The notes beneath the pieces are model-generated. The model was not told the origin of the DNA and made no database searches. It saw only the letters and a list, made by a program, of their open reading frames with translations. A stretch of DNA of 33,304 bases. Source: Syntrophomonadaceae bacterium (GTDB taxonomy: Bacteria; Bacillota; Dethiobacteria; DTU022). Shown one piece after another: positions 5,536 to 26,725 of this stretch. A program made the position numbers and the translations under genes. The stretch spans positions 1-33,304 of the forward strand of contig SLQM01000252.1 of the NCBI GenBank assembly GCA_007131435.1, written 5' to 3'. How positions within the stretch are numbered: position 1 is the first letter of the stretch; each line of letters begins with the position of its first letter.

Positions 5536-6537
5536 ATGATCAATCCATGGCTGCAGTTTCTAATTTGTGCGGTAATTATTGTTCTGGCAGGCAGCAGGTT
5601 AACCGGTAATGCCGCAATAGTTGCCAAGAAAACCGGTATCGGAACAGCATGGGCAGGAGTTCTGCTTTTACCGCTGGCCACTTCTCTACCAGAACTGGTG
5701 ACAACCCTGAGCGCAGTGGCAATTAATGCGCCAGACCTGGCCACGGGTAATATATTGGGCAGCTGCCTGTTCAATATTGCAATCCTGTTTGTGATTGACC
5801 TGGTTGAAGGAAAAGGCCCTCTGTCATCACGAATCAGCCAGGCGCACATTATTACAGTCTCCTTGAGTATTATGACAATAAGCCTGGCATCAATTGGCCT
5901 GCTGGGTGTGACATATTTTCCTATCGGCTGGATAGGCCTTGAAACGCTGCTTATAGCAGGGGTTTACCTGCTGGGAAGCAGGCTGATCTATGTAAATGAA
6001 AAAAAAGCATTTGTTGAGATTAAAGCAGCAGACAATATTTATATTCAGGGGAAGGATTTAACCGTTGGCAGGGCTCTTACCAACTTCCTTATTGCTGCAA
6101 TATTTATCCTGGTCAGCGGATTGCTGTTGGTTAATGCCACGGACAGGATTGCAATTGAAACCGGTCTTGGTTACACATTTGTGGGTTCAATATTTTTGGC
6201 AATAAGCACTTCCCTGCCCGAACTGGTTACAACGATGAGCGCAGTGCGCCTCGGATTTTCGGATATGGCAGTGGCCAATATTTTCGGGGCAAACTTTATG
6301 AACCTGTTTATTATTTTTATTGCCGATCTGTTTTACAGTAAAGGACCGCTGTTAAGCGCAGCTTCAGAAGGAAACATTTTATCCGCCCTGATGGTTGTTA
6401 TGTTAAGTTCCATCTTTGTTTTCGGGCTGTTGTTCCGCTCGGACAGGACAGTAATCCGGGTAGGTTTTGATACATTACTGATTTTTTTAGGCTACCTCAC
6501 AGCAGCACTCATGCTGTTCAAAGTGGGTGGCAATTAA
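5536..6537 (+). CDS. CaCA-family sodium/calcium antiporter
   Basis: 333 aa; two alpha-repeats LPLATSLPELVTTLSAV...GNILGSCLFNIAI and LAISTSLPELVTTMSAV...NIFGANFMNLFI. Confidence 0.88.
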   Translation: MINPWLQFLICAVIIVLAGSRLTGNAAIVAKKTGIGTAWAGVLLLPLATSLPELVTTLSAVAINAPDLATGNILGSCLFNIAILFVIDLVEGKGPLSSRISQAHIITVSLSIMTISLASIGLLGVTYFPIGWIGLETLLIAGVYLLGSRLIYVNEKKAFVEIKAADNIYIQGKDLTVGRALTNFLIAAIFILVSGLLLVNATDRIAIETGLGYTFVGSIFLAISTSLPELVTTMSAVRLGFSDMAVANIFGANFMNLFIIFIADLFYSKGPLLSAASEGNILSALMVVMLSSIFVFGLLFRSDRTVIRVGFDTLLIFLGYLTAALMLFKVGGN

Positions 6538-10693: not shown

Positions 10694-12295
10694 TTGTTCT
10701 GGGATATAGCCTTTAGTACTCTTGGCGGCCTTGGGCTTTTCTTATTCGGCATCCAGATTATGGCTTCCGGCATGCAGAAGGCAGCTGGTGACAGGTTTCG
10801 CCGTATCTTGGAAATCTTAACCAATAAACCGGTAATCGGTGTATTGACCGGAATACTTGTCACCATTCTTGTTCAAAGCAGCAGCACGGCTTCAGTAATG
10901 GTTGTTGGCTTTGCCAATGCCGGCCTGATGAATCTTTCCCAGGCCATTAGTGTGATTATCGGTGCCAATATAGGCACCACTGTCACTGCCCAAATTGTAT
11001 CTTTCAAAATCGGTGTAATTGCTCTTCCGGCTATCGGTATCGGTTCCCTGCTCAACTTCTTTGGACGCAGGCGGTTCCAGAGGTACCTGGGGCAGACAGT
11101 GCTCGGTTTTGGGCTGCTTTTTCTCGGTATGACAACCATGTCAAACGGTATGATGCCGCTGCGGGAACTGGATGCTTTCCACAACATGCTGGCCCAGTTC
11201 AGCGCTTATCCTATTCTTGGCATCCTCGCCGGCGCAATCTTCACAGCCCTTATACAAAGCAGCAGTGCAGCTACAGGAGTCATTATCGCCCTGACCCTCC
11301 AGGATCTTATCCCATTTCACTCTGCAGTGCCTCTAGTTTTGGGGACCAATGTGGGCACCAGCATTACAGCTATCCTGGCCGGGATTGGAGCGAATGTTGC
11401 TGCGCGGCGTGCTGCTGTGGCCCATGTCCTATTTAACCTTATCGGTGTAATTCTTGCCCTGATCTTTTTGCAGCCATTTACATCAATTCTTGTGGAAACA
11501 GCTAATACCGTCCCCCGCCAGGTTGCCAATACCCATACCGCGTTCAACCTTTTTAATACGATCATCTTCCTTGTTTTCTTAAAATATTTTACCAGGCTGG
11601 TCTGCTATATCATTCCCGGAGAAGATGAAAAGATCGAATTTGGACCTAAATATCTCGATCCAAGAATTTTAAGAACTCCTGCTGTGGCGATTGGGGGAGC
11701 AAAACAGGAACTCCTGCGCATGGCTTCTATTGCCCGGGAAATGCTTGGTGAATCTATCCAGGTATTTATACATGGCGATCTAAAAAAAATTAAGCACATT
11801 GAGCAAATGGAAGACCTGATTGACGGCCTTGAAAAAGAGATCAATATTTACCTTGCAGATCTTTCCCAGCACTCCATGTCACGTGAACAATCCAATGCAG
11901 TCGGGCATATGATGTCAGCAGCCAATGACCTGGAGCGGATAGGAGATCACTCGGAAAACATTGTACAGCTGGGGGAATTAAAAGCCGAGGAAAGACTTCC
12001 CTTTTCTACGACTGCCCTGGATGAGATAAATGAGCTCTACAGCAAGGTGGATTCAATGTTGGAAAGGGCGATTATCGCATACAGAAATGATAACCATGAG
12101 CTGGCAAAACAGATAGTAGTTGAAGATGATGAAGTAGATGAGATGGAAAAGAACCTGCGCATGAGCCATATTGATCGGATCAACACCCGAAAATGCTATC
12201 CACAGTCAGGGGTTATCTACCTGGATCTACTCAGCAATCTTGAACGGATAGCAGATCATGCCAACAATATAGCAAACCTGGTTCTTGAAGAATAA
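10694..12295 (+). CDS. Na/Pi cotransporter family protein with C-terminal PhoU-like domain
   Basis: 533 aa, TTG start; repeats VQSSSTAS/IQSSSAAT and GANIGTTVTA/GTNVGTSITA; C-terminal helical PhoU-like region (DLERIGDHSENI, NLERIADHANNIA). Confidence 0.9.
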   Translation: MFWDIAFSTLGGLGLFLFGIQIMASGMQKAAGDRFRRILEILTNKPVIGVLTGILVTILVQSSSTASVMVVGFANAGLMNLSQAISVIIGANIGTTVTAQIVSFKIGVIALPAIGIGSLLNFFGRRRFQRYLGQTVLGFGLLFLGMTTMSNGMMPLRELDAFHNMLAQFSAYPILGILAGAIFTALIQSSSAATGVIIALTLQDLIPFHSAVPLVLGTNVGTSITAILAGIGANVAARRAAVAHVLFNLIGVILALIFLQPFTSILVETANTVPRQVANTHTAFNLFNTIIFLVFLKYFTRLVCYIIPGEDEKIEFGPKYLDPRILRTPAVAIGGAKQELLRMASIAREMLGESIQVFIHGDLKKIKHIEQMEDLIDGLEKEINIYLADLSQHSMSREQSNAVGHMMSAANDLERIGDHSENIVQLGELKAEERLPFSTTALDEINELYSKVDSMLERAIIAYRNDNHELAKQIVVEDDEVDEMEKNLRMSHIDRINTRKCYPQSGVIYLDLLSNLERIADHANNIANLVLEE

Positions 12296-13929: not shown

Positions 13930-14373
13930 ATGAAGATAGCCCTGGGAAGCGATCATGCCGGTTACAACTTAAAAGAAGAGATAGCAGAGCAGTTAAAAAG
14001 CAGGGGTTGCCTAATAAAGGATTGCGGCGTATTCTCCAGGGAGAGTTCAGATTATCCTGACACTGCTGAAACAGTATCAGGAGCGGTGCAGGACGGGGAG
14101 GTTAACTTCGGCATTCTCATCTGCGGAACCGGAATTGGTATGTCGATTGCGGCAAACAAGCGTAAAGGGATCAGGGCAGCACTATGTGCTGAGTCATATT
14201 CAGCCCGCTGCGCCCGTCAACACAATAATGCCAACATTCTTGCACTCGGTTCCCGGGTAACCGGGGTGGGGCTTGCGTTGGAAATTATCGATGTTTTTTT
14301 GGCTACTTCTTTTGAAGGAGGGCGCCATCAAGGCCGGGTAGATAAAGTTACTGCATTAGAAAACACCAGATAA
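13930..14373 (+). CDS. rpiB: Ribose 5-phosphate isomerase B
   Basis: MKIALGSDHAGYNLKEEI, GILICGTGIGMSIAANKRKGIRAALC. Confidence 0.95.
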   Translation: MKIALGSDHAGYNLKEEIAEQLKSRGCLIKDCGVFSRESSDYPDTAETVSGAVQDGEVNFGILICGTGIGMSIAANKRKGIRAALCAESYSARCARQHNNANILALGSRVTGVGLALEIIDVFLATSFEGGRHQGRVDKVTALENTR

Positions 14374-14385
14374 GGATGATACAAC

Positions 14386-15651
14386 ATGAATGAACCAGGC
14401 TTTAGATTAGGTTTTGAACTGCTGGGGGAAGTTGACCCCGAGATTGCGGCAACTATTAATGAAGAAGAAAAGCGTCAGCAGGAAAACTTGATCATGATCG
14501 CCTCTGAAAACCTGGTGAGCAGAGCTGTGCTCCAGGCCCAGGGGTCGGTTTTAACTAATAAATACGCAGAAGGGTATGCAGGGGCTCGCTATTATGGAGG
14601 ATGCACTTTTGTGGACCGGGCAGAAGAGCTGGCCATTAAAAGGGCAAAAGAGATTTTTTCTGCAGAGCATGTTAATGTTCAGCCACACTCAGGCACTTCG
14701 GCCAACATGGCTGTCTACCTGGCCTTCCTGCAGCCGGGTGATAAAATCTTAGGTATGGATTTAAGTCACGGTGGGCACCTGACTCACGGGAGTAAGGTTA
14801 ACATCTCAGGTATCTACTATCAGGCATTCAGCTACGGGGTAAATCGTGAAACAGGTTTAATTGATCTCGGGAATGTTAGAAAGATTGCCAGGGAAACTAA
14901 GCCCAGGCTGATCATTGCCGGAGCCAGTTCCTACCCCAGGTTTATTGATTTTGAAGGGTTTGCCGCCATTGCAAAAGAAGTTGGAGCCCTTTTTCTTGTT
15001 GACATGGCTCATACTGCAGGTTTGGTAGCGGCAGGTGTTCACCCGAACCCAGTTTTATACGCCGACCTGGTTACAGCTACTACGCATAAAACATTTCGCG
15101 GCCCCAGGGGCGGGATGATTTTTTGCCGCAGTGAATATGCTGCTGCTATAGATAAAGCAGTTTTTCCCGGTTTACAGGGAGGGCCGCTGATGCATATCAT
15201 TGCAGCTAAGGCGGTTGCTTTTAAAGAAGCGCAGCTTCCCGGTTTTGTGAAGTACCAGGAAAAAGTAGTTGCCAATGCCCGGGCTCTTGCCGAGGGGCTT
15301 GCTGCTGAAGGGTTTAAGCTTTTAACGGGTGGGACTGATACGCACCTGGTGCTCGTTGACCTGCGCAGCAATGCCATTAGTGGTAAGGAAGCGGAGGCGC
15401 TGCTTGAAAGTGTACACATAACAGTCAATAAAAATGTAATCCCCTATGACCCTAAAGGGGCTAATGACCCCAGCGGCATCAGGCTGGGCACTCCGACTCT
15501 AACATCCCGGGGAATGGAAACCGGCCAGATGTTAGAAATTGCAGCTCTCATCGCAGAAACCATTAACTACAGGAACGATAAGAAGCGCCTGGAAAAAGTG
15601 CGAAGCAGGGTTGCAGAACTTTGCAGCGCTTTTAAAGTATATTATTTTTAG
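14386..15651 (+). CDS. glyA: Serine hydroxymethyltransferase
   Basis: 421 aa; [30 protein letters not shown]-lysine motif. Confidence 0.96.
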
Positions 15652-15666
15652 AAGGAGTTGATTTTT

Positions 15667-16296
15667 TTGGAACAGGTAGTTGTAGTCGATCATCCGCTGG
15701 TACAGCATAAGCTTTCCCTCTGCCGGCGTGTAGAGACACAGACCTGGCAATTCCGGGGACTGGTTGAAGAAATTACCGCTCTTATGCTCTATGAGGCTAT
15801 CCGGGACATAGCGACGGTTGAAGCTGACCTGGTAACACCGGTAGGTCCCGGAAAAGGCACTCAAATTAGTGCCAAGGAACCGGTATTTGTTGCAGTTCTC
15901 AGGGCCGGGCTTGGTATGGTGCCCGGCGCGCTGCGTCTTTTCCCCTATGCAAGAGCCGGCCACATAGGGCTGTACAGGGATCACGACACTCATATTCCGG
16001 TTCAGTATTATAATAACCTCCCGCCAGATATAGAAGATGTTGATTGTTATTTACTCGAGCCAATGCTGGCAACCGGCGGATCAGCTGTTCATGCGCTAAC
16101 GCTGCTTAAAGAGGCAGGAGCGAAAAAGATTAAGATCATGAGCCTGATTGCTGCGCCAGAGGGTATTAAAGCGATTACCGATAGTCATCCTGATGTTACA
16201 ATATACCTGGCGTCCATCGATGAAAAGCTGAATGACAAAGCCTATATAGTTCCGGGCCTTGGCGATGCAGGAGATCGCCTTTTTGGGACAGCCTGA
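15667..16296 (+). CDS. upp: Uracil phosphoribosyltransferase
   Basis: ORF 15658-16296; TTG 15667 favoured because AAGGAG abuts 15658. [30 protein letters not shown]. Confidence 0.93.
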
Positions 16297-16313
16297 TGCA
16301 GCAGGAGATAGCT

Positions 16314-16760
16314 ATGGATAAGCGGCCCGATTGGGATCAGTATTTTTTGGAAATAGCATCGGTGGTGGCTTCCCGTTCAACCTGCCTGCGGCGTAAGGTG
16401 GGAGCCCTGTTGGTGTTAAACAAGCGTATTTTGACAACCGGTTATAATGGTACCCCATCAGGGCTTAAACATTGCAGGGAGGTTGGCTGCCTGAGGGAAG
16501 AGTTAAAGGTGCCATCCGGGGAAAGGCATGAGTTGTGCCGGGGCCTGCACGCAGAGCAAAATGCCATTATCCAGGCGGCAGTACATGGTGTAGCTATCAA
16601 TAAGGCAGTTCTTTACTGTACAAACTATCCCTGTGCGGTATGCGCCAAGATGATCATTAACGCCGGAATTAGATCGCTGGTGCTGGCTGCCAATTATCCC
16701 GATGATTTGGCGAAAGAGATTTTTACCGAGGCTGGAATAAACGTTAGGTTTATAGTATAA
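16314..16760 (+). CDS. comEB: dCMP/cytidine deaminase family protein (ComEB-like)
   Basis: ORF 16296-16760, ATG 16314 favoured by [13 protein letters not shown] and [17 protein letters not shown] zinc motifs. Confidence 0.9.
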
Positions 16761-16810
16761 TATTTTTCGTGTTGTGATCTGGATTCGTTTAATTTTTTGC
16801 ACAATTAAGA

Positions 16811-16947
16811 GATTTGCCTGCATTTTGACTTTCGCTTAGCAATGACTGGACCATTAATAACTGTATCAGCTGAACAAGATAATGATTACCCATGAACTTC
16901 GCCGGCAAATCCAAAAGAACCCTTAAAGCTATAATTTACAGAGGGTT
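16811..16947 (+). ncRNA. Candidate structured leader (riboswitch/attenuator-like) upstream of the V-ATPase operon
   Basis: 8-bp long-range stem GATTTGCC (16811-16818)/GGCAAATC (16904-16911), then hairpin AACCCT (16918-16923)/AGGGTT (16942-16947) followed by ATTTATTTA. Not matched to a known RNA family. Confidence 0.35.
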
Positions 16948-17077
16948 ATTTATTTACTGAGGGATAAAGGCTTGGATAAAATTTACTATTGCAGCATGGA
17001 TCAGATTATTTTGTTACAGTCTTTGATTTAAATTCTGCGAGATAGTAAACCAGTATCAGTTTAAAGGATGGTGGAGT

Positions 17078-17686
17078 ATGACTATTCAGGTAAAAGAACT
17101 TATTGACAAAATTAAAAACGAGGGTGTCCTTGCGGCCGAGGCTGAGGCTGAAAAGATTATTTCCGAAGCAGAGGAAAATGCATCCCAGATAATTAAGGAT
17201 GCCCAGTCCAGGGCGGAATCGATGAAGGCGCAGGCAGAACAGGAGATCGAGCAGCAAAAAGCTGCCGGTGAAGCTGCTATTAAGCAGGCCGCCCGCGATG
17301 TTTTAATTGGTTTGGACAAGCAACTTATGAAACGATTTGACGCAGTGATTATTGAATCTGTAGATACGGCACTGACAACTTCTTTAACAGAGAAAATTAT
17401 AGTAGAAATGGTTAGCGCCTGGGTTGATAAGGGCGAAGAGGGCATCAGGGTGGTTCTCTCATCAAATGATGCCGAAAAATTAAAAGAGTCTTTAAAAGGA
17501 AAATTATCGCAGAATCTCAAGGATGGAGTGGAAATTATCCCCTCTGCTAAATTTGATAAAGGTTTTCGTATCGGTGGCAGCAGCGGGGTTTTATATGATT
17601 TCTCAAAGGAAAGTATAGCTGAGGTCTTGTCTCAAGCTCTGTCCCCGGACCTCGCGGCAGCTTTGAAAGAGGATATAAAAGACTAA
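17078..17686 (+). CDS. atpE: V-type ATPase subunit E
   Basis: 202 aa; long Ala/Glu-rich N-terminal helix (LIDKIKNEGVLAAEAEAEKIISEAEENASQII) and globular C-terminus; first gene of the V-ATPase operon. Confidence 0.85.
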   Translation: MTIQVKELIDKIKNEGVLAAEAEAEKIISEAEENASQIIKDAQSRAESMKAQAEQEIEQQKAAGEAAIKQAARDVLIGLDKQLMKRFDAVIIESVDTALTTSLTEKIIVEMVSAWVDKGEEGIRVVLSSNDAEKLKESLKGKLSQNLKDGVEIIPSAKFDKGFRIGGSSGVLYDFSKESIAEVLSQALSPDLAAALKEDIKD

Positions 17687-17714
17687 GATATACAGTTGCC
17701 TGGAGGAAAGTTTT

Positions 17715-18242
17715 ATGAAAAACTACTTTTACACCTTAGCAGCCCTGAAAACTTTAAAGCTGGGCGAAAAAATTCCAATCTCTGAAGAGTCTTTTTTAGA
17801 ATTTGCTGAAGATACCATAGCAGCAAAGGATTACCGAATTTTACTCAAATGTCGTTGGGGCTTAACGGAGCCAACGGGCTTTTCTTTTGCTGACCGGATA
17901 CTTTCCTGGGAAAAGGAACTGCGTGTGGAGCTGGCCAAGGCCCGGGTTTCAAAGCTGCCATTTGAACTTCCACCAACTCTAAAAGACCTGCCCGGCAACT
18001 ACAGCCTGCTTGAAGAGGTGCGTGCTGCCATGGCTTTAGAATCACCGCTAGATGCGGAACGATATTTGGACCAAATGCGGTGGAACTATTTAGAAGAAAT
18101 AGGTGCTCGCCACTATTTTGACTTTGAAGCCCTGGTCATCTATTATTTAAAGCTTCAACTTGCCCTGCGCCAGGAAAAATTTCAAGAGGAACTTGGCAGA
18201 GATTCTTTCGAAAAAGAGTACGCTGCTCTAACGGAAAGTTAA
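17715..18242 (+). CDS. DUF2764-like V-ATPase-operon protein
   Basis: 175 aa; MKNYFYTLAALKTLKLGEKIPIS; located between E and A as in Chlamydia/spirochaete-type operons. Family assignment from memory and position. Confidence 0.7.
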   Translation: MKNYFYTLAALKTLKLGEKIPISEESFLEFAEDTIAAKDYRILLKCRWGLTEPTGFSFADRILSWEKELRVELAKARVSKLPFELPPTLKDLPGNYSLLEEVRAAMALESPLDAERYLDQMRWNYLEEIGARHYFDFEALVIYYLKLQLALRQEKFQEELGRDSFEKEYAALTES

Positions 18243-18273
18243 TAAACTGATTACCTTATAGAAATGGGTGAGA

Positions 18274-20043
18274 ATGATTAACAAAGTAATTGGCGTTAGT
18301 GGAAACATGGTCTCTGTGGAATATACCGGTGAGGCTACGATGAACGAAGTCTGTTACATCATTACCGGGGATAAGAAATTAAAGTCAGAGGTCATTCGTG
18401 TCAAGGGCAACGTGGCCGACCTCCAGGTTTTTGAAATGACTTCTGGTATAAGCGTGGGCGACACTGTTGAATTCAGCGGTGACCTGCTCAGTGTGCAGTT
18501 AGGTCCGGGTTTGCTGGGGCAGGTATATGATGGATTGCAGAACCCCCTGCCCGAACTGGCGGAACAGTGTGGCTTCTTTTTAGAACGCGGTGTCTACATG
18601 GCGGCTCTCGATGATGAAAAAGAGTGGGAGTTTAACCCGACTGTGGAGGTTGGTGCCAGGTTGGAAGCCGGCGAACAGATCGGTTTTGTTAAAGAGGGTC
18701 TTTTTAACCACTGGATTATGGTCCCCTTTCAGCTTGAGGGTGTTCTAACCATAGAGAGCATTAAAGAAGAAGGGAAATATTCCCTTAATGATGTGTTGGC
18801 TGAAGCCAGAGATGAAAAAGGAAACCTTCACCAATTATCGATGGTATTTAACTGGCCTGTAAAGCGGGCTATTAAAACCTATGCAGAGCGCTTAAAGCCG
18901 GAAGAAACGCTGATCACCAAGTTAAGAATTATTGACACTTTCATCCCCGTGGCCAAGGGTGGCACCTATTGCATCCCCGGTCCTTTTGGTGCCGGAAAAA
19001 CGGTTCTGCAACAGATTACCTCCAGGTATGCTGACGCGGATATTATTATCATTGCTGCCTGTGGAGAGCGTGCCGGCGAGGTCGTGGAGACCCTGAAAGA
19101 GTTTCCCGAGCTGATCGACCCGAAAACCGGCCGTTCCTTAATGGAGAGGACTATCATTATCTGCAACACTTCTTCCATGCCTGTTGCTGCCCGTGAAGCA
19201 TCGGTTTATACAGCAGTAACCATGGCCGAGTATTACCGGCAGATGGGCCTGAATGTTCTGCTGCTGGCAGATTCAACCTCGAGGTGGGCCCAGGCTATGC
19301 GTGAAATGTCCGGTCGCCTGGAAGAAATTCCAGGGGAAGAAGCCTTCCCTGCATACCTGGAATCGCTGATAGCCGCCTTTTACGAGCGGGCCGGGATTGT
19401 TCGCCTGAAAAGCGGTGATACCGGTTCTGTAACCATCGGCGGCACTGTTTCTCCGGCCGGCGGTAACTTTGAAGAGCCGGTAACCCAGGCCACGTTAAAG
19501 GTGGTGGGCGCATTTCACGGTTTGTCGCAACAGCGGGCTGACGCCCGTAAATATCCTGCTATTCACCCCCTGGAATCCTGGTCAAAGTACGAGGGCATTA
19601 TCGATCAGCAGAAGACAGAATATGGCCGGTCCGTACTCTTTAAAGGTGATGAGGTTGGCCAAATGATGAAAGTGGTTGGCGAAGAGGGTACTTCACTGGA
19701 TGATTACATAATTTACCTTAAATCAGAGTTTCTGGATTATGTTTATATCCAGCAGAACTCTTTTGATCCTGTAGATGCTGCCGTGGAGCCTGAGCGTCAA
19801 CAGCATATTTATGATATTATCATTGACATTCTGACGGCCAGGTTAGATTTTGACGGTAAAGAGGAAGCCCGCTCCTGGTTCAACCGGGTGCGGCAGAACT
19901 TCCTGGACTATAATGGTAAAAAATGGAACAGTGACGAGTTTAATGACCTGGAGAAAACCATCTCTGAACTGCTGGACGACAAGAAAATAGGGGTCGAAGC
20001 AGATGCCGAAAGTCTTTGGGCAGGCGAGTCAAGGAGGGGCTAG
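18274..20043 (+). CDS. atpA: V-type ATPase catalytic subunit A
   Basis: [13 protein letters not shown]-loop; [80 protein letters not shown] 18268-20043. Confidence 0.96.
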
Positions 20044-20045
20044 TA

Positions 20046-21344
20046 TTGCAAAAAGTATACAGTAAAATCGAATCGATCTCCGGCAATGTTATTACAGTAA
20101 AGGCAGCGGGGGTGCGCTACAAAGAGCTTGCCGTTGTTGGAAGCAGGTATGGTTCATCTTTGGCGGAAGTGATCCGCCTGAAAGGTGATGAAGTTGCCCT
20201 GCAGGTTTTCAATGGTGGAAGGGGCGTATCCACCGGGGACGAAGTTCGTTTCATGGGTGAGCCGATGAAAGTATCTTTTTCCCCCAATCTTTTAGGGCGT
20301 ATTTTTGATGGTTCAGGGCGGCCGCGGGACGGGGGGCCTGAACTTGCCGATACAATGGTTGAAATTGGTGGCCCTTCTGTTAACCCTGCCAAGCGTATTA
20401 TTCCCCGTAATATGGTCCGGACGGGAATTCCCATGATTGATGTTTTTAATTCACTGGTAGAATCGCAGAAACTTCCTATCTTTTCTGTTTCGGGAGAGCC
20501 TTATAACGAACTTTTAGCCCGGATAGCCCTGCAGGCCGAGGTTGATATTATTATCCTCGGTGGGATGGGACTTAAGTACGACGATTATCTTTTCTTCAAA
20601 GATACCCTGGAAAAGGGCGGAGTGATGTCCAGGACAGTCTTTTTTGTTCACACCGCGTCTGACCCTGTTGTTGAATCCCTGCTGGTTCCCGATATTGCCC
20701 TTGCGGTGGCGGAAAAGTTTGCCATTCAGGATAAGCGGGTCCTGGTTTTACTGACCGATATGACCAACTTTGCCGATGCCATGAAGGAAATCTCTATTAC
20801 AATGGAACAGGTTCCCTCCAACCGTGGCTATCCCGGAGACCTTTACACCCAGCTGGCATCGCGCTACGAAAAGGCCGTCGACTTTGAAGGGTCAGGTTCA
20901 ATTACTATTCTTGGTGTTACCACCATGCCCGGGGATGATGTCACCCACCCTGTCCCCGATAATACGGGCTATATTACGGAAGGGCAGTTTTATCTTCGTA
21001 ATGGCCGAATCGAGCCATTCGGGTCCCTGTCCAGGTTAAAACAGCTGGTAAATGGTGATACACGTGATGATCACCGTGCCATCATGGACGGAATGATTAA
21101 GTTATACGCCGCCTACAAGGAGTCCCTGGAGAAGAAATCAATGGGTTTTAAGATGTCAGGCTGGGACGAAAAACTTTTAACATACGGCCAGTTATTTGAA
21201 CAGGAAATGATGGATCTTTCCGTTAACATTCCCCTCGAGGACGCCCTTGATAAAGGGTGGGAAATACTGGGCGGCTGTTTTGAACCGGAGGAAACAGGAT
21301 TAAGGTCGGATCTGATCGAAAAATACTACAGTAGTAAGGTGTAG
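20046..21344 (+). CDS. atpB: V-type ATPase subunit B
   Basis: TTG 20046 after AAGGAGGGG (ORF 20016-21344); [52 protein letters not shown]. Confidence 0.95.
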
Positions 21345-21347
21345 ATC

Positions 21348-21944
21348 ATGGCAAAAATCAAGTATACGAAAAATGAATTAAAAAAGCAAAAGGATCAGCT
21401 TAAAAGGTTCAAGCGCTATTTGCCTACCCTGGTTCTGAAGAAACAGCTGCTGCAAATGGAGATACGACAGGTTGAGATGCAAATAAAAGAAAAGAGTCAG
21501 CAGCGGGAAAGAATCAACGCTGAACTGATGAGCTGGGTTCATGTTTTTGGCGAAAACTTGAATATTGCCGAACTGGTAAAGGTGAAGGAGACGGATCTGG
21601 AAACCGCTAACATAGCCGGTGTTGATATCCCGGTGTTTAACGAGGTTATTTACGAGGATATACCCTATGACCTGATGTTTTACCCGCTTTGGGTGGACGC
21701 AGGTGTTGAAAAGCTGAAGGAGCTTTATTCTGCAGATACGGAACTTTCCATTCTTAAAAAACAGGCTGAACTACTGGGCGAAGAGTTAAGAATTACCACC
21801 CAGCGGGTCAACCTGTTCGAAAAGGTCAAGATCCCTGACACCCAGGAGAATATCAGGCGCATTAATATTTTCCTCGGCGATCAGCAGACAGCTGCTGTTG
21901 TGCGGGGCAAATTAGCAAAAAATAAACTGGTGAGGGAGGCGTAA
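21348..21944 (+). CDS. atpD: V-type ATPase subunit D
   Basis: 198 aa coiled-coil central-stalk protein between B and I; KNELKKQKDQLKRFKRYLPTLVLKKQLLQ. Confidence 0.88.
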   Translation: MAKIKYTKNELKKQKDQLKRFKRYLPTLVLKKQLLQMEIRQVEMQIKEKSQQRERINAELMSWVHVFGENLNIAELVKVKETDLETANIAGVDIPVFNEVIYEDIPYDLMFYPLWVDAGVEKLKELYSADTELSILKKQAELLGEELRITTQRVNLFEKVKIPDTQENIRRINIFLGDQQTAAVVRGKLAKNKLVREA

Positions 21945-21947
21945 GCG

Positions 21948-23831
21948 ATGATTGCAGAGATGAAACAAATATCGATGGTTGTCCAGACCAAAGATAAAGA
22001 GCTAACTCTCGATGCGCTGGCCGAACTTGGCCTCGTTCACCTTGAAGACTTTCAGTATTCTTCATCGGAAGTTGATGACGCTCTTGCCAGGAAAAACCGG
22101 GCAGAAGATGCATATAATTTTTTGGCCTCATTAAAAAGTAAAAATGACCTGTCTCCACCTGCTTTAGAACCCTCAGAGGCGGTAGAGGAAGTGCTTCAGT
22201 TAAAGGAAGATCTACTGGCTGCCATGGAACGGAAGGCGGCACTGGAAAAACAGATTGCCGGTTTGGAAGGCTGGGGGGACTTCGATCCCGCAGACTTCAA
22301 GTTTCTCGCCGACAAAGGTTACCACCTGAGAATTTACATCGCTGCCGGCGGGAAAGCAGAGGATTTAGGTGAGATTGAGGGTGACATGGTGATTTTAAGG
22401 GAGGACAAAAAAGAGCTGGCATTTGCCCACCTTACCCGTGAACCTGTAAAACTGGACGATTATGAAGAGCTTAACCTTCCTCCGCAAAGCCTTAGCGCTA
22501 TGCAGGCAGAAAAAAATAAATTGGCAGCAGAGGTTGCAGCGCTTACCGGAAAAGCAGAGCGCTATTATGCCCTTGTGCCTGCCCTGCGTGCTCACCTTGA
22601 AGAGCTGGATTCTAACCTGCAGTACTGGATTGCCAAGGCAAATACCGTAGATGAAGGGAACCTTACAGCCATAGTTGGATATATTCCTGCTGCAGAGATT
22701 GAGCCCGTCCAAAATTGGGCCCGGCAGAATTCTGTCGCCTTAGCCATAACAGAACCTGAAATAATAGAATCCGTACCAACGCAGATCCGTAATCCCAGGT
22801 GGTTGCAGATTGTTGAACCCGTATTCAAGTTCATGGGCACAGTTCCCGGCTACAATGAGCTGGATATCAGCCTGGTATTTCTTTGCTTTTTCACCGTTTT
22901 TTTTGCCATGATTATCGGGGATGCCGCCTATGGATGCATCTTTTTCCTGGCAGGCCTCGGCCTGGTAATTTACTACAGCAAATCTAAAAAAGAAAAACCT
23001 CCCCTGGCTGCGGTGCTGTTTACCATTCTTGGCTTGGCCACGGTTATCTGGGGTACCATAACCGGTTCCTGGTTCGGCAGCCCTGAATTGATCGAAGGAA
23101 CTTTCCTGGAAAAACTTGTAATCAGCCAGCTAATAGAGGGGTTCAGGTTCTATACACCCGCCGGTGAATTTTACAAGGTTTTAAGCGGTCAGGATGTCAT
23201 CACGCTTTTGTGTTTCATCATCGCAATATTTCACCTTACCATCGCCCAGGTTTGGAATTTCCTACTTGCCCTGTCTCAACGCTCCCTGCAGGCCCTGGGC
23301 CAGGTAGGATGGATGCTCATTAACTTTGGCCTCTTTTACCTGGTGCTCGATATGGTGGCGAGATTCAACCTCGACCAGGCTTTGGGGACGGGTGATCTTC
23401 TAGCAGGTATGAGTTTAAATATCATTATTGCCGGGTTAGTGTTGATCATTCTCTTTGGTTCACAAAGACGAAGGGGCAACTTTTTTAAAGGGCTGCTTGG
23501 CGGCCTTGGAGATCTACCGGGTACAATTCTGGGATCCATATCGGCCTTCGGCGACATCATATCATATATAAGGCTGTTTGCCATGGGCCTGGCGGGAGCC
23601 GAAATAGCAAGAGCATTTAATAACATGGCCGGGGACCTTTTATCCGGCAATACCTTCATTTTTGGAGTGCTGATCCTGTTGGTCGGGCATACTTTCAACT
23701 TTGTTCTTTGCAGCCTGGGAGTGCTGGTGCACGGAATTCGCTTGAAAATGCTGGAGTTTTCGGGCCGACTGGGCATACAGTGGTCTGGCCATGAATATGA
23801 TCCGTTCAGATATCGTAGAGACGCGGCCTAA
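21948..23831 (+). CDS. atpI: V-type ATPase membrane subunit I (a-like)
   Basis: 627 aa; soluble N-terminal half, multi-TM C-terminus with FGDIISYIRLFAMGLAGAEIA containing the essential-Arg motif. Confidence 0.93.
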   Translation: MIAEMKQISMVVQTKDKELTLDALAELGLVHLEDFQYSSSEVDDALARKNRAEDAYNFLASLKSKNDLSPPALEPSEAVEEVLQLKEDLLAAMERKAALEKQIAGLEGWGDFDPADFKFLADKGYHLRIYIAAGGKAEDLGEIEGDMVILREDKKELAFAHLTREPVKLDDYEELNLPPQSLSAMQAEKNKLAAEVAALTGKAERYYALVPALRAHLEELDSNLQYWIAKANTVDEGNLTAIVGYIPAAEIEPVQNWARQNSVALAITEPEIIESVPTQIRNPRWLQIVEPVFKFMGTVPGYNELDISLVFLCFFTVFFAMIIGDAAYGCIFFLAGLGLVIYYSKSKKEKPPLAAVLFTILGLATVIWGTITGSWFGSPELIEGTFLEKLVISQLIEGFRFYTPAGEFYKVLSGQDVITLLCFIIAIFHLTIAQVWNFLLALSQRSLQALGQVGWMLINFGLFYLVLDMVARFNLDQALGTGDLLAGMSLNIIIAGLVLIILFGSQRRRGNFFKGLLGGLGDLPGTILGSISAFGDIISYIRLFAMGLAGAEIARAFNNMAGDLLSGNTFIFGVLILLVGHTFNFVLCSLGVLVHGIRLKMLEFSGRLGIQWSGHEYDPFRYRRDAA

Positions 23832-23936
23832 CCGGCAGCCATCTCTACCTTTTTGCGACTGGTAGAAATTGTATCTTTTATAGTATCGGGATAAATTACC
23901 GAAATAAACTGCATTATTGAAAAGGAGCCTGATAAA

Positions 23937-24383
23937 ATGGTTGAGTATGGATTAATGGGTATCAGCGCAGCGCTTGCAGTCTCTGCTGTTGGTTCTGCAC
24001 TCGGTATCGGTGCGGCCGGGCAGGCCGTTATTGGAGCGTGGAAAAAGGCTTTTATGCAGAACAAGCCTGCTTCGTTTATGTTATTGGCTTTTACTGGTTT
24101 CCCGCTTTCCCAGACTTTTTACGGTCTTATTCTGATGAATACCATCGTGGCATCGGCGGATCTCTTAGAGAGCGGTGTAATTCTGGGTATCGGTATTTTT
24201 GGTGGTCTTGCCATGGGTACGTCTGCCTATTTCCAGGGCGTTGCCGGTGCCGGCGCAGTCGATGCCTTTGCAGAGACAGGCAAGGGCTTTACCAACTATG
24301 TTCTGGTGCTTGGTGTTATTGAATCGGTTGCCCTGTTGACCATGGTCTTCCTGATGACGATGATCAACACCATGGCAGGGTAA
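23937..24383 (+). CDS. atpK: V-type ATPase rotor subunit K (c-like, two hairpins)
   Basis: 148 aa, four TM helices; ALGIGAAGQAVIG, PLSQTFYG, AYFQGVAGAGAVDAFAE, LGVIESVALLTMVF. Confidence 0.93.
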   Translation: MVEYGLMGISAALAVSAVGSALGIGAAGQAVIGAWKKAFMQNKPASFMLLAFTGFPLSQTFYGLILMNTIVASADLLESGVILGIGIFGGLAMGTSAYFQGVAGAGAVDAFAETGKGFTNYVLVLGVIESVALLTMVFLMTMINTMAG

Positions 24384-24427: not shown

Positions 24428-24523
24428 AGGGCTGTCTTTAAAAAGTGTTCTGGGGCAGCCCTATTAGCATCAATTGGCAGGTTTGCAGCGGTTTTGAAGA
24501 CAGGCTAAGCAAGCCCGGCCGCT
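24428..24523 (+). other. Two potential hairpins between atpK and the PHP gene
   Basis: AGGGCTG (24428-24434)/CAGCCCT (24456-24462); nested AGCGG/CCGCT (24487-24491/24519-24523) enclosing GGCT/AGCC. No T-tract. Confidence 0.3.
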
Positions 24524-24600
24524 AAGTTAGATTTTGAAGAGAGGTTTCCCGAGATGCGCTATAAAGCATCCGGAGAATGACCTGTCTCCAGGGTGGGCAT

Positions 24601-25659
24601 ATGTATACTTACCCGGGTAACATCCACATTCACAGCGCTTATTCCGATGGAAGCGGATCATTCGAAGAGATAGCTGCGGATGCTGCTGCCGCAGGGTTAA
24701 GTTATGTGATCATTGCCGATCACGAAACCCTGGCAGGGCTGCCGGAAGAGGGCATGAACCACGGTGTGGCAGTGCTGGTGGGGAATGAGCTGAACAGAAA
24801 AAATAACCACTACCTTGTTCTGAACCTGGATAAATATTTCCCGGGAAATGAAGAAGATCCGCAGGAGCTAATCGACCGGGTTGCCCGCAGCGGGGGGCTC
24901 GGTTTTTTAGCGCACCCCTTCGAAAAAGGTTCTCCATATATTGAGAAAGGTAAAGCTCAGCCCTGGGTAGTGTGGCCGGTTTTCCGTTTTCATGGTATGG
25001 AGATATGGAACTATACTTCGCACTGGCGGGGTTTTCACCCATCACCTTTCAAAACCCTATACCACTTTTTTTTCGACCGGAAAGGAGCAATGAGCGGCCC
25101 TCCGCCCGAGCTGCTGGCGCTTTGGGACTGCTATAATAACAGCGGCCACAGGGTGGTTGGAATAGGCAGCAGCGATGCCCATGCTTTCCCCTATAAACTG
25201 GGCCCATTTTCTATTGTTATTTTTCCTTACCGCTACCTTTTTAAAACTATAAACACCTATATTGTCCTGGAAACAGATTTAAGCAGTGAATTTGTCACGG
25301 CCCGCAGCCAAATTCTTGGTGCCCTGCAGGCAGGCCGCTGTTACAGCTGTTTTGACAGCCTGCACAGCGGAAAAGAGTTTAGGTTTTATGCAGGCAGCCA
25401 GGATGATCCGGTGATGATGGGAGATACGGCAAGCTATGTAAAGGGCCTGCAGCTTAATATTGCGGTGCCTTCAGAACGCTCTATAACCCGGCTTGTGCGC
25501 AACGGCCGGGTAATCAATGAGTTCAGAAAAAAAATTATTGTCCTCGACCCGCCAGGCCCAGGGGTCTACAGGGTTGAAGTACTCTATCGCAGGCGGTTTC
25601 ATCACCCCAGGCCCTGGATCTATTCAAACCCCATCTTTTTACAGCCTCCCTTGCAGTGA
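24601..25659 (+). CDS. PHP-domain metallohydrolase (CehA/McbA-like)
   Basis: GNIHIHSAYSDGSGSFEEI, IADHET, FLAHPFEKG, GIGSSDAHAF PHP metal-binding motifs. ORF 24577-25659, ATG 24601 favoured. Confidence 0.85.
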   Translation: MYTYPGNIHIHSAYSDGSGSFEEIAADAAAAGLSYVIIADHETLAGLPEEGMNHGVAVLVGNELNRKNNHYLVLNLDKYFPGNEEDPQELIDRVARSGGLGFLAHPFEKGSPYIEKGKAQPWVVWPVFRFHGMEIWNYTSHWRGFHPSPFKTLYHFFFDRKGAMSGPPPELLALWDCYNNSGHRVVGIGSSDAHAFPYKLGPFSIVIFPYRYLFKTINTYIVLETDLSSEFVTARSQILGALQAGRCYSCFDSLHSGKEFRFYAGSQDDPVMMGDTASYVKGLQLNIAVPSERSITRLVRNGRVINEFRKKIIVLDPPGPGVYRVEVLYRRRFHHPRPWIYSNPIFLQPPLQ

Positions 25660-25732: not shown

Positions 25733-26725
25733 ATGCTAAAAGTAGGTATTAACGGGTTTGGCAGGATTGGCAGGATGACTTTTCGTGCCTCTCTGAACCA
25801 GGAGAAGGTGAAAGTAGTAGCAATAAATGATCTCGCCGACAACGACTCGCTGGCTCATTTGCTAAAGTACGACTCGGTTTATGGAATTCTTGACGCAGAA
25901 GTTGAAAGTGATGACCAGGGCTTCCTGATTGACGGAGAAAGGGTCAGGGTTTTTTCGGAAAGGGAACCGGCGAATATCCCCTGGAAAGAAGCAGGGGTTG
26001 ATATTGTTATAGAATGCACAGGAATTTTCACCAAGCGTGACGCGGCAGCAGCCCACCTCGATGCGGGAGCTGAAAGGGTAATTATTTCGGCCCCTGCTGC
26101 TGTTGACCTTGTAGTGGTACTCGGTGTTAATGAGCAGGAATATGATCCAGAAAAACACTATGTTATTTCCAACGCTTCCTGCACCACAAACGCCCTTGCA
26201 CCCCTGGTAAAAGTTCTTCATGAAAACTTCGGTGTGGTAAAAGGGCTGATGAACACAACTCATGCTTACACGAATGATCAAAACTTGCATGATTTCCCCC
26301 ACAAAGATATGAGACGGGCCAGGGCAGCAGCGCTTTCTCTAATTCCCACCACGACTGGTGCGGCAAAAACCGTTGGTGAAGTTATACCGGAGTTGAAAGG
26401 CAAAATTGATGGCTTTGCAGTCCGGGTGCCAACTCCAACAGTGTCGCTGGTAGATTTTGTGGTTGAACTAAGCAAGAAAGTAACAGCCGAAAGTATAAAC
26501 GAGGCTTTCAAAAAAGCAGCTTCCGGCTCTCCCTATCTCGATTACAGTGAGAAACCACTGGTTTCCATCGACTACACCGGTAACCCCTACTCATCCACGG
26601 TTGATGGCCTTTCAACCATGGTTGTCCAGGATACCCTGGTCAGGGTTGTCGGTTGGTACGATAACGAGTGGGGCTATTCCTGCCGCCTCTTAGATCTTGC
26701 CGCTATGATTGCAGAAAAAAACTGA
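25733..26725 (+). CDS. gap: Glyceraldehyde-3-phosphate dehydrogenase, type I (NAD-type)
   Basis: 330 aa; INGFGRIGRMTFRA, SNASCTTNALAP catalytic Cys, WYDNEWGYSCRLLDL. RBS GGAGG. Confidence 0.96.
   Translation: MLKVGINGFGRIGRMTFRASLNQEKVKVVAINDLADNDSLAHLLKYDSVYGILDAEVESDDQGFLIDGERVRVFSEREPANIPWKEAGVDIVIECTGIFTKRDAAAAHLDAGAERVIISAPAAVDLVVVLGVNEQEYDPEKHYVISNASCTTNALAPLVKVLHENFGVVKGLMNTTHAYTNDQNLHDFPHKDMRRARAAALSLIPTTTGAAKTVGEVIPELKGKIDGFAVRVPTPTVSLVDFVVELSKKVTAESINEAFKKAASGSPYLDYSEKPLVSIDYTGNPYSSTVDGLSTMVVQDTLVRVVGWYDNEWGYSCRLLDLAAMIAEKN

Follow-up and report, generated by a model that had tools for sequence, protein, structure and literature searches.

Which rotary ATPase stood behind the genes rpiB-glyA-upp-comEB before a V-type ATPase operon came to occupy this place, and how was it exchanged? 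The question is raised by a 33,304-bp stretch (contig SLQM01000252.1, assembly GCA_007131435.1, Syntrophomonadaceae bacterium), analysed as a whole and hereafter called the window. A previous sequence-only reading had proposed that an F1Fo operon at this locus was displaced in situ by the V-type one. For comparison, 98 genomes of the class, nearly all metagenome-assembled genomes (MAGs), were taken, and the regions surrounding upp, comEB, and the ATPase genes were mapped with BLAST, using a set of reference proteins. Genomes are numbered with G (G000 carries the window) and families with f (f1 includes G000). The data very probably reflect repeated whole-operon exchange at one chromosomal slot, in which the window's operon would be spirochaete-like in origin and would have replaced a canonical V/A operon.

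Type of the Operon

The operon has the order E-DUF2764-A-B-D-I-K, and genes for the canonical C, F, and H/G subunits are absent. Judged by its predicted products, it is a seven-gene V-ATPase of the spirochaete/chlamydia/Bacteroidetes type and not a canonical V/A enzyme (Enterococcus hirae/Thermus type). It shares with this type the subunit families, DUF2764 in second position, a reduced set without accessory stalk subunits, and a four-helix K with Na+ ligands; spirochaete loci, its nearest relatives, contain the same gene set. It differs in the host, a Bacillota class to which this type is otherwise alien, in forming a separate clade, and in the upp/comEB site. The canonical V/A operon belongs to the same overall enzyme class and holds the same chromosomal position in most f1 genomes, but comprises nine genes in another order (H-I-K-E-C-F-A-B-D). 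Its full-length B subunits score about 375-402 bits against PRK02118, whereas those of the seven-gene operons score 757-770 bits. The spirochaete/chlamydia-type branch has been discussed earlier (PMC2359735), and a Bacteroides fragilis operon with DUF2764 represents the same V-ATPase type (PMC10790697).

The order rpiB-glyA-upp-comEB followed by a V-type operon, with no F-type subunit gene inside the window, was confirmed from open reading frames (ORFs) and Pfam/NCBIfam matches. The operon had been called complete, which holds for the seven-gene type and not for the canonical one; it had also been placed directly after comEB, which is correct for the gene order, with a 317-bp spacer in between.

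Occupants of the Site across the Class

Downstream of comEB, the relatives showed F-type, V/A, seven-gene, tandem, and empty states. An F1Fo operon follows comEB in f4 (G047 and G049), f5 (G050, G055, G062, G065, and G051), and f8 (G073 and G076). The canonical nine-gene V/A operon is the occupant in the majority of f1 genomes and is also present in f7 and in some f5 genomes (G006, G008, G013, G027, G061, G063, G072, G077, and others). The seven-gene operon was found there in f1 (G000, G021, G023, G016, and G024, with G001 assigned from the downstream flank) and f5 (G046, G048, and G054), and an f6 contig of G071 ends inside such an operon. In G058 (L125, 1-20000), a whole F1Fo operon is directly followed by a whole canonical V/A operon on one strand; its congener G051 (L141) has the F operon alone. 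ATPase-free sites were observed in G010, G019, G026, G029, G032, and G045, where comEB is followed, in longer contigs, by the usual murA-...-PHP neighbours. Within f1, the score was 6 seven-gene, 31 V/A, 5 empty, and 1 undetermined, so V/A operons hold 31 of the 42 scorable sites.

The comEB-operon junction of the window recurs within single contigs of the independent MAGs G021 and G023, and the operon-PHP-gapA junction of G001, from the same genus, is identical to the window arrangement, which is therefore no assembly accident. A gene is sometimes inserted between comEB and the operon, either flippase-like (PF03706 in G048) or thiolase-like. Many f1 genomes (L092, L093, L094, and L301-L305) have a murA-like gene immediately downstream of the site; G000 and G023 do not, and the slot's downstream border thus varies too.

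Phylogeny and Probable Lateral Origin

The V/A operons of f1 form one clade (support 98), in which G006 and G013 are sisters, matching their genera in the rpoB tree. In the rpoB tree, genomes with the seven-gene operon are nested singly next to V/A relatives: G021 pairs with its congener G006 (99), G023 with its congener G013 (100), and G000 with G027 (98). Over 29 genomes, the site state requires at least 10 changes on this tree. The simplest reading of the order of events in f1 would be V/A first and seven-gene later, and the operon displaced in the window's family was most likely a canonical V/A one.

The seven-gene copies of the class make up one clade (100) among spirochaete sequences, with canonical V/A as the outgroup, in agreement with a horizontal origin. 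The closest B subunits outside the class, among GTDB species genomes, are those of spirochaetes (about 83% identical). Inside the class clade, the copies of G000, G001, G021, and G023 nest with f5 copies, and those of G016 and G024, also from f1, fall outside. Forced monophyly of the f1 seven-gene copies was rejected (approximately unbiased test, p-AU 5e-9). The ratio of operon (A+B+D+I) to rpoB distance among G000, G021, and G023 is 0.33-0.36, compared with 0.64-1.40 for 55 f1 V/A pairs; since congeneric seven-gene pairs gave 0.73-1.45, the seven-gene type is not simply slow. As read from these trees, the window's operon is a later replacement of one V-type enzyme by another, laterally acquired type.

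In a sample of the phylum, 4 of 399 genomes exceeded the cut-off for the seven-gene B subunit (PRK02118), three of them within the class. The sole genome outside it, G359 (L321), reached 724 bits.

Recombination Scars at the Borders

The comEB gene of G021 is a hybrid: its first three quarters resemble those of its congener G006, and its last part, together with the whole spacer, resembles G000. In 60-bp windows, identity between G021 and G000 climbs along comEB from 56-70% to 85-93%. The maximum chi-square method placed a breakpoint in this gene (G000-matching informative sites, 144/513 on the left and 31/46 on the right; p=0.0005), and no significant breakpoint was obtained for three control triplets. 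At the 3' border, similarity between G021 and G000 stops about 90 bp past the K stop codon, after which G021 runs into its own murA. The hybrid comEB, the common spacer, and the 3' border fit a cassette replacement by homologous recombination in flanking DNA.

Probable F-Type Ancestry and Relics

The site F operons of f8, f4, and f5 (excluding G051 and G058) form one clade (99), as expected under vertical descent. The site F operon of G051 and G058 (genus g26) is of a second kind, whose other members lie at other genomic places, and an F-for-F replacement in this genus is possible. In G054 (L109, 5089-6554), frameshifted remains of atpI, atpB, and atpE lie between a flippase-like gene and the seven-gene operon. 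They follow the F operon order (tblastn 3e-16, 4e-21, and 5e-29, respectively), and five shuffles of all spacers gave no atpI, atpB, or atpE match. By their similarity and order, the G054 relics are read as the gene fossil of a displaced F1Fo operon, and their place beside a V operon indicates that F-to-V displacement in situ happened in the class. In addition, atpB was matched weakly in G048 (E 0.006), and G046 contains an atpI-like frame of 148 aa. The window spacer (16761..17077) was searched for relics of F or V/A genes, and none were detected.

Some F1Fo operons contain two or three c-subunit genes of differing length (G049: L105, 4847-6321; G050: L103, 10100-10942). The predicted difference in size (single- versus double-hairpin) suggests mixed c-rings.

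Comparison of Explanations

Direct displacement of an F1Fo operon at the upp locus by the V-type operon in the window's lineage, as first proposed, appears improbable. F-type operons do occupy the site in f4, f5, and f8, and F relics do adjoin the seven-gene operon of G054. However, all close relatives in f1 carry a canonical V/A operon, a seven-gene operon, or an empty site, and none of them an F operon at this place; moreover, the V/A operons of f1 are one clade, and the window spacer lacks an F relic. The in situ replacement of F by V therefore stands for the class and not as the direct step in the window's lineage. The same reading had expected undisturbed neighbouring synteny, and V-type operons were indeed found at the site in other families with the flanks kept. 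It would be refuted by an intact F-type operon of vertical ancestry elsewhere in the genome, or by the same V arrangement being ancestral throughout the class; each was found in part, because an N-type F-family operon lies elsewhere and the presence of a V operon at the site is ancient for the family, though not for the class as a whole. The original idea is thus partly supported, being right in kind and wrong on the immediate step.

It is still less likely that both V operons stood side by side in the f1 ancestor and that one was lost per lineage without lateral exchange. Tandem operons do exist at the site (F and V/A in G058), but both V types occur together there in no f1 genome, the seven-gene divergence between genera is about one third of the rpoB expectation, the f1 seven-gene copies are not one clade, and the comEB gene of G021 is a hybrid. 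An assembly or binning artefact, by which a spirochaete operon or a foreign contig was put into a Bacillota MAG, might be suspected from the prevalence of MAGs and the rarity of the seven-gene type in the phylum. We consider this extremely improbable, given that several independent MAGs have the comEB junction inside a single contig and that the class copies form their own clade, apart from every spirochaete.

Repeated exchange is thus the preferred explanation. The site states with their tandem and empty forms, the conflicts between trees, the F relic, and the hybrid comEB are shown, and the direction of each swap is what we infer. The interval from comEB to murA/PHP/gapA would be a conserved chromosomal slot in which rotary-ATPase operons were exchanged repeatedly within the class. 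The seven-gene V-ATPase may have entered the class once from a spirochaete-like source and later passed from one family or genus to another. Within the family of the window, it would have replaced the canonical nine-gene V/A operon, at least partly via homologous recombination in flanking genes; at deeper levels of the class, V operons probably took over from an F1Fo operon of vertical descent.

Several points weigh against this explanation or narrow it. The demonstration of a hybrid comEB concerns G021 and has no independent counterpart for the window; G021 and G000 cannot be sorted into donor and recipient, and comEB of G023 showed no significant breakpoint. The seven-gene operons of G059 and G068 (f5) are separated from comEB by 3.7 kb and about 12 kb, respectively; not every arrival was therefore an exact replacement. 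Some site assignments were made from one flank, since contigs break within the operon. The F ancestry of the class is argued from f8, f4, f5, and what is generally known of Firmicutes; it does not derive from a rooted reconstruction. Finally, the predominance of MAGs applies to the whole comparison, and the window's own genome is 83% complete.

N-ATPase and Other Bioenergetic Genes of the Genome

The genome G000 has a size of 2.2 Mb in 261 contigs. A search with PF00006 retrieved A, B, Rho, and one further protein on contig C126. This contig (L005, 1-5917) contains the end of beta, truncated at the contig start, and behind it epsilon, R, a, c, a gene for a b-delta-like fusion, alpha, and gamma. 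The N-ATPase order is beta-epsilon-X-X-a-c-(b delta)-alpha-gamma; here R was the one X gene recognised, and Q was not searched for. The C126 alpha subunit scored 822.5 bits against TIGR03324 (N-ATPase; cut-off 750.5). On the basis of this score and the fused b-delta-like subunit, both shared with N-ATPases of the Dibrova type (PMC11738941, PMC5376962), the C126 operon, in which the genes run beta-epsilon-R-a-c-(b delta)-alpha-gamma, is assigned to the N-ATPases, a subclass of the F-type, and is separate from that of the window. The genome thus has an F-family operon elsewhere; no ordinary F1 alpha was seen in G000, of which up to 17% may be missing. An alpha above the N-ATPase cut-off is encoded in 23 of the 98 class genomes, including G000, often alongside a V-type enzyme. 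A subunit of the Rnf complex was also found in G000 (RnfC, 578 bits). As predicted from these genes, Rnf could charge the membrane, and the C126 N-ATPase would be a second pump.

Features of the Window and Its Gene Neighbourhood

The genes of the window are arranged in the order prfA (8167), prmC, a NikR-like regulator, a Na/Pi cotransporter, ywlC, ywlE, rpiB, glyA, upp, comEB, the spacer, the seven V-ATPase genes (17078-24383), a PHP-domain gene, and gapA, all on the forward strand except for the NikR-like one. Features of the exchange site are listed in Table 1. The comEB gene is the upstream edge of this site, and its 3' end is the recombination tract common to the window and G021. Subunits E and I were named from the full-length best match and operon position, the NCBIfam equivalog cut-off being a threshold for naming that does not define the type.

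Table 1. Features at and around the exchange site of the window.
Feature	Coordinates	Strand	Evidence and remarks
rpiB	13930..14373	+	Upstream site anchor; ORF list and synteny in relatives
glyA	14386..15651	+	Upstream anchor; ORF list and synteny
upp, uracil phosphoribosyltransferase	15658..16296	+	PF14681, 6e-68; missing at the site in many relatives
comEB-like dCMP deaminase	16296..16760	+	PF00383; best NCBIfam TIGR02571, 120.6 bits, below cut-off 219
Spacer, 317 bp	16761..17077	+	Aligns over full length with the G021 spacer
V-ATPase subunit E, spirochaete-type	17078..17686	+	Best NCBIfam PRK01558, 172 bits; cut-off 241 not reached
DUF2764 protein, operon-specific subunit	17715..18242	+	PF10962, 3.7e-11
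V-ATPase catalytic subunit A	18268..20043	+	PRK04192, 776 bits; cut-off 470
V-ATPase subunit B, PRK02118 (spirochaete/chlamydia) type	20016..21344	+	761 bits; cut-off 431; overlaps A
V-ATPase subunit D	21348..21944	+	PRK02195, 245 bits; cut-off 189
V-ATPase subunit I (a-like stator/ion channel)	21948..23831	+	PRK05771.2-2, 457 bits, below cut-off 799; PF01496 above cut-off
V-ATPase subunit K, four-helix proteolipid	23937..24383	+	PRK06649, 188 bits; cut-off 127
Hairpin behind K	24428..24462	+	Kept in G001, G021, and G023; homology of the exchanged segment stops just past it
PHP-domain gene	24577..25659	+	PF02811; downstream site neighbour in most f1 genomes
gapA	25733..26725	+	Downstream anchor; ORF list and synteny

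The hairpin behind K was considered as a terminator, a role that found no support: it has no T tract and folds no better than shuffled sequences. A Na+/Ca2+ exchanger (5536-6537) and the Na+/Pi cotransporter, which has a PhoU domain (10694-12295), are encoded near the site; both are consistent with a Na+ economy.

Predicted Ion Coupling and the DUF2764 Subunit

A single-sequence search revealed no relatives of the window K in the PDB, and its ligands were therefore read through the canonical K of G013, which matches the K ring of E. hirae (2bl2) with its Na+ ligand positions. Residues S58, Q59, Q100, and E130 of the window K correspond to T64, Q65, Q110, and E139 of E. hirae K. The E130-E139 match follows from spacing (Q to E, 30 residues here and 29 in E. 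hirae), since MAFFT sets the last glutamate a few columns off. The list of Na+ ligands in E. hirae K is reportedly that of Murata et al. from 2005. Coupling of the window's enzyme to Na+ is likely on these residues, and its use would be as the cell's ATP synthase or ion pump. In Bacteroides, the enzyme of the same type possesses all of the ligands and contributes to fitness in bile acid, although it is biochemically uncharacterised (PMC10790697). For a Burkholderia N-ATPase, Na+ specificity was predicted and H+ specificity measured (PMC5376962); sequence-based Na+ calls can thus fail, for which reason Na+ is held here as likely and no firm choice is made between synthesis and pumping.

The DUF2764 protein gave a confident all-helical model (pLDDT 88.6), for which no fold match was found in the PDB at E<=0.001. 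Its identification as a diverged subunit C was rejected, as profile comparison gave a probability of 0.4% (with only 3 C sequences) and the model had no PDB fold.

Relation to Known Systems and Biological Meaning

Neither the lateral transfer of rotary ATPases nor displacement in situ is a new idea. The in situ displacement of genes or operons (xenologous replacement) was reportedly described by Omelchenko et al. in 2003, a study to which PMC1274311 refers. The present case shares with it that foreign genes replace resident ones while the neighbours remain undisturbed: both flanks are conserved where the operon differs from that of sister taxa, operon and species histories conflict, and scars are present in the F relic of G054 and the hybrid comEB of G021, with no relic in the window's own spacer. 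It goes further in that the unit is a rotary ATPase, the slot has been used repeatedly by enzymes of several kinds, and sites in the tandem, relic, empty, and hybrid-flank state are all preserved. Many combinations of F, A, and N ATPases within genomes have been catalogued (PMC11738941). No description of repeated exchange of several rotary ATPase kinds at one locus was found in the open-access literature, which is weak evidence of absence.

Rotary ATPases are usually seen as conserved core machines, and the case for their lateral transfer is made with deep trees. In this class, a single slot keeps the steps of replacement: a new operon added next to the old one, the old one in decay, empty sites, and a cassette swapped via recombination in a neighbouring gene. 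It thereby becomes possible to test how a cell can exchange its main ATPase, perhaps along with its coupling ion, while staying viable. The class also offers a Bacillota setting for studying the structurally uncharacterised seven-subunit V-ATPase and its DUF2764 subunit. More tentatively, and with considerable doubt, the slot might actively trade alternative bioenergetic modules as alleles, even within genera, via flank recombination, so that coupling ion and ATP synthase class could switch quickly. If this is true, the main coupling ion (H+ or Na+) and the class of ATP synthase would track the environment (e.g., salinity and pH) and would not be a fixed trait of the lineage.

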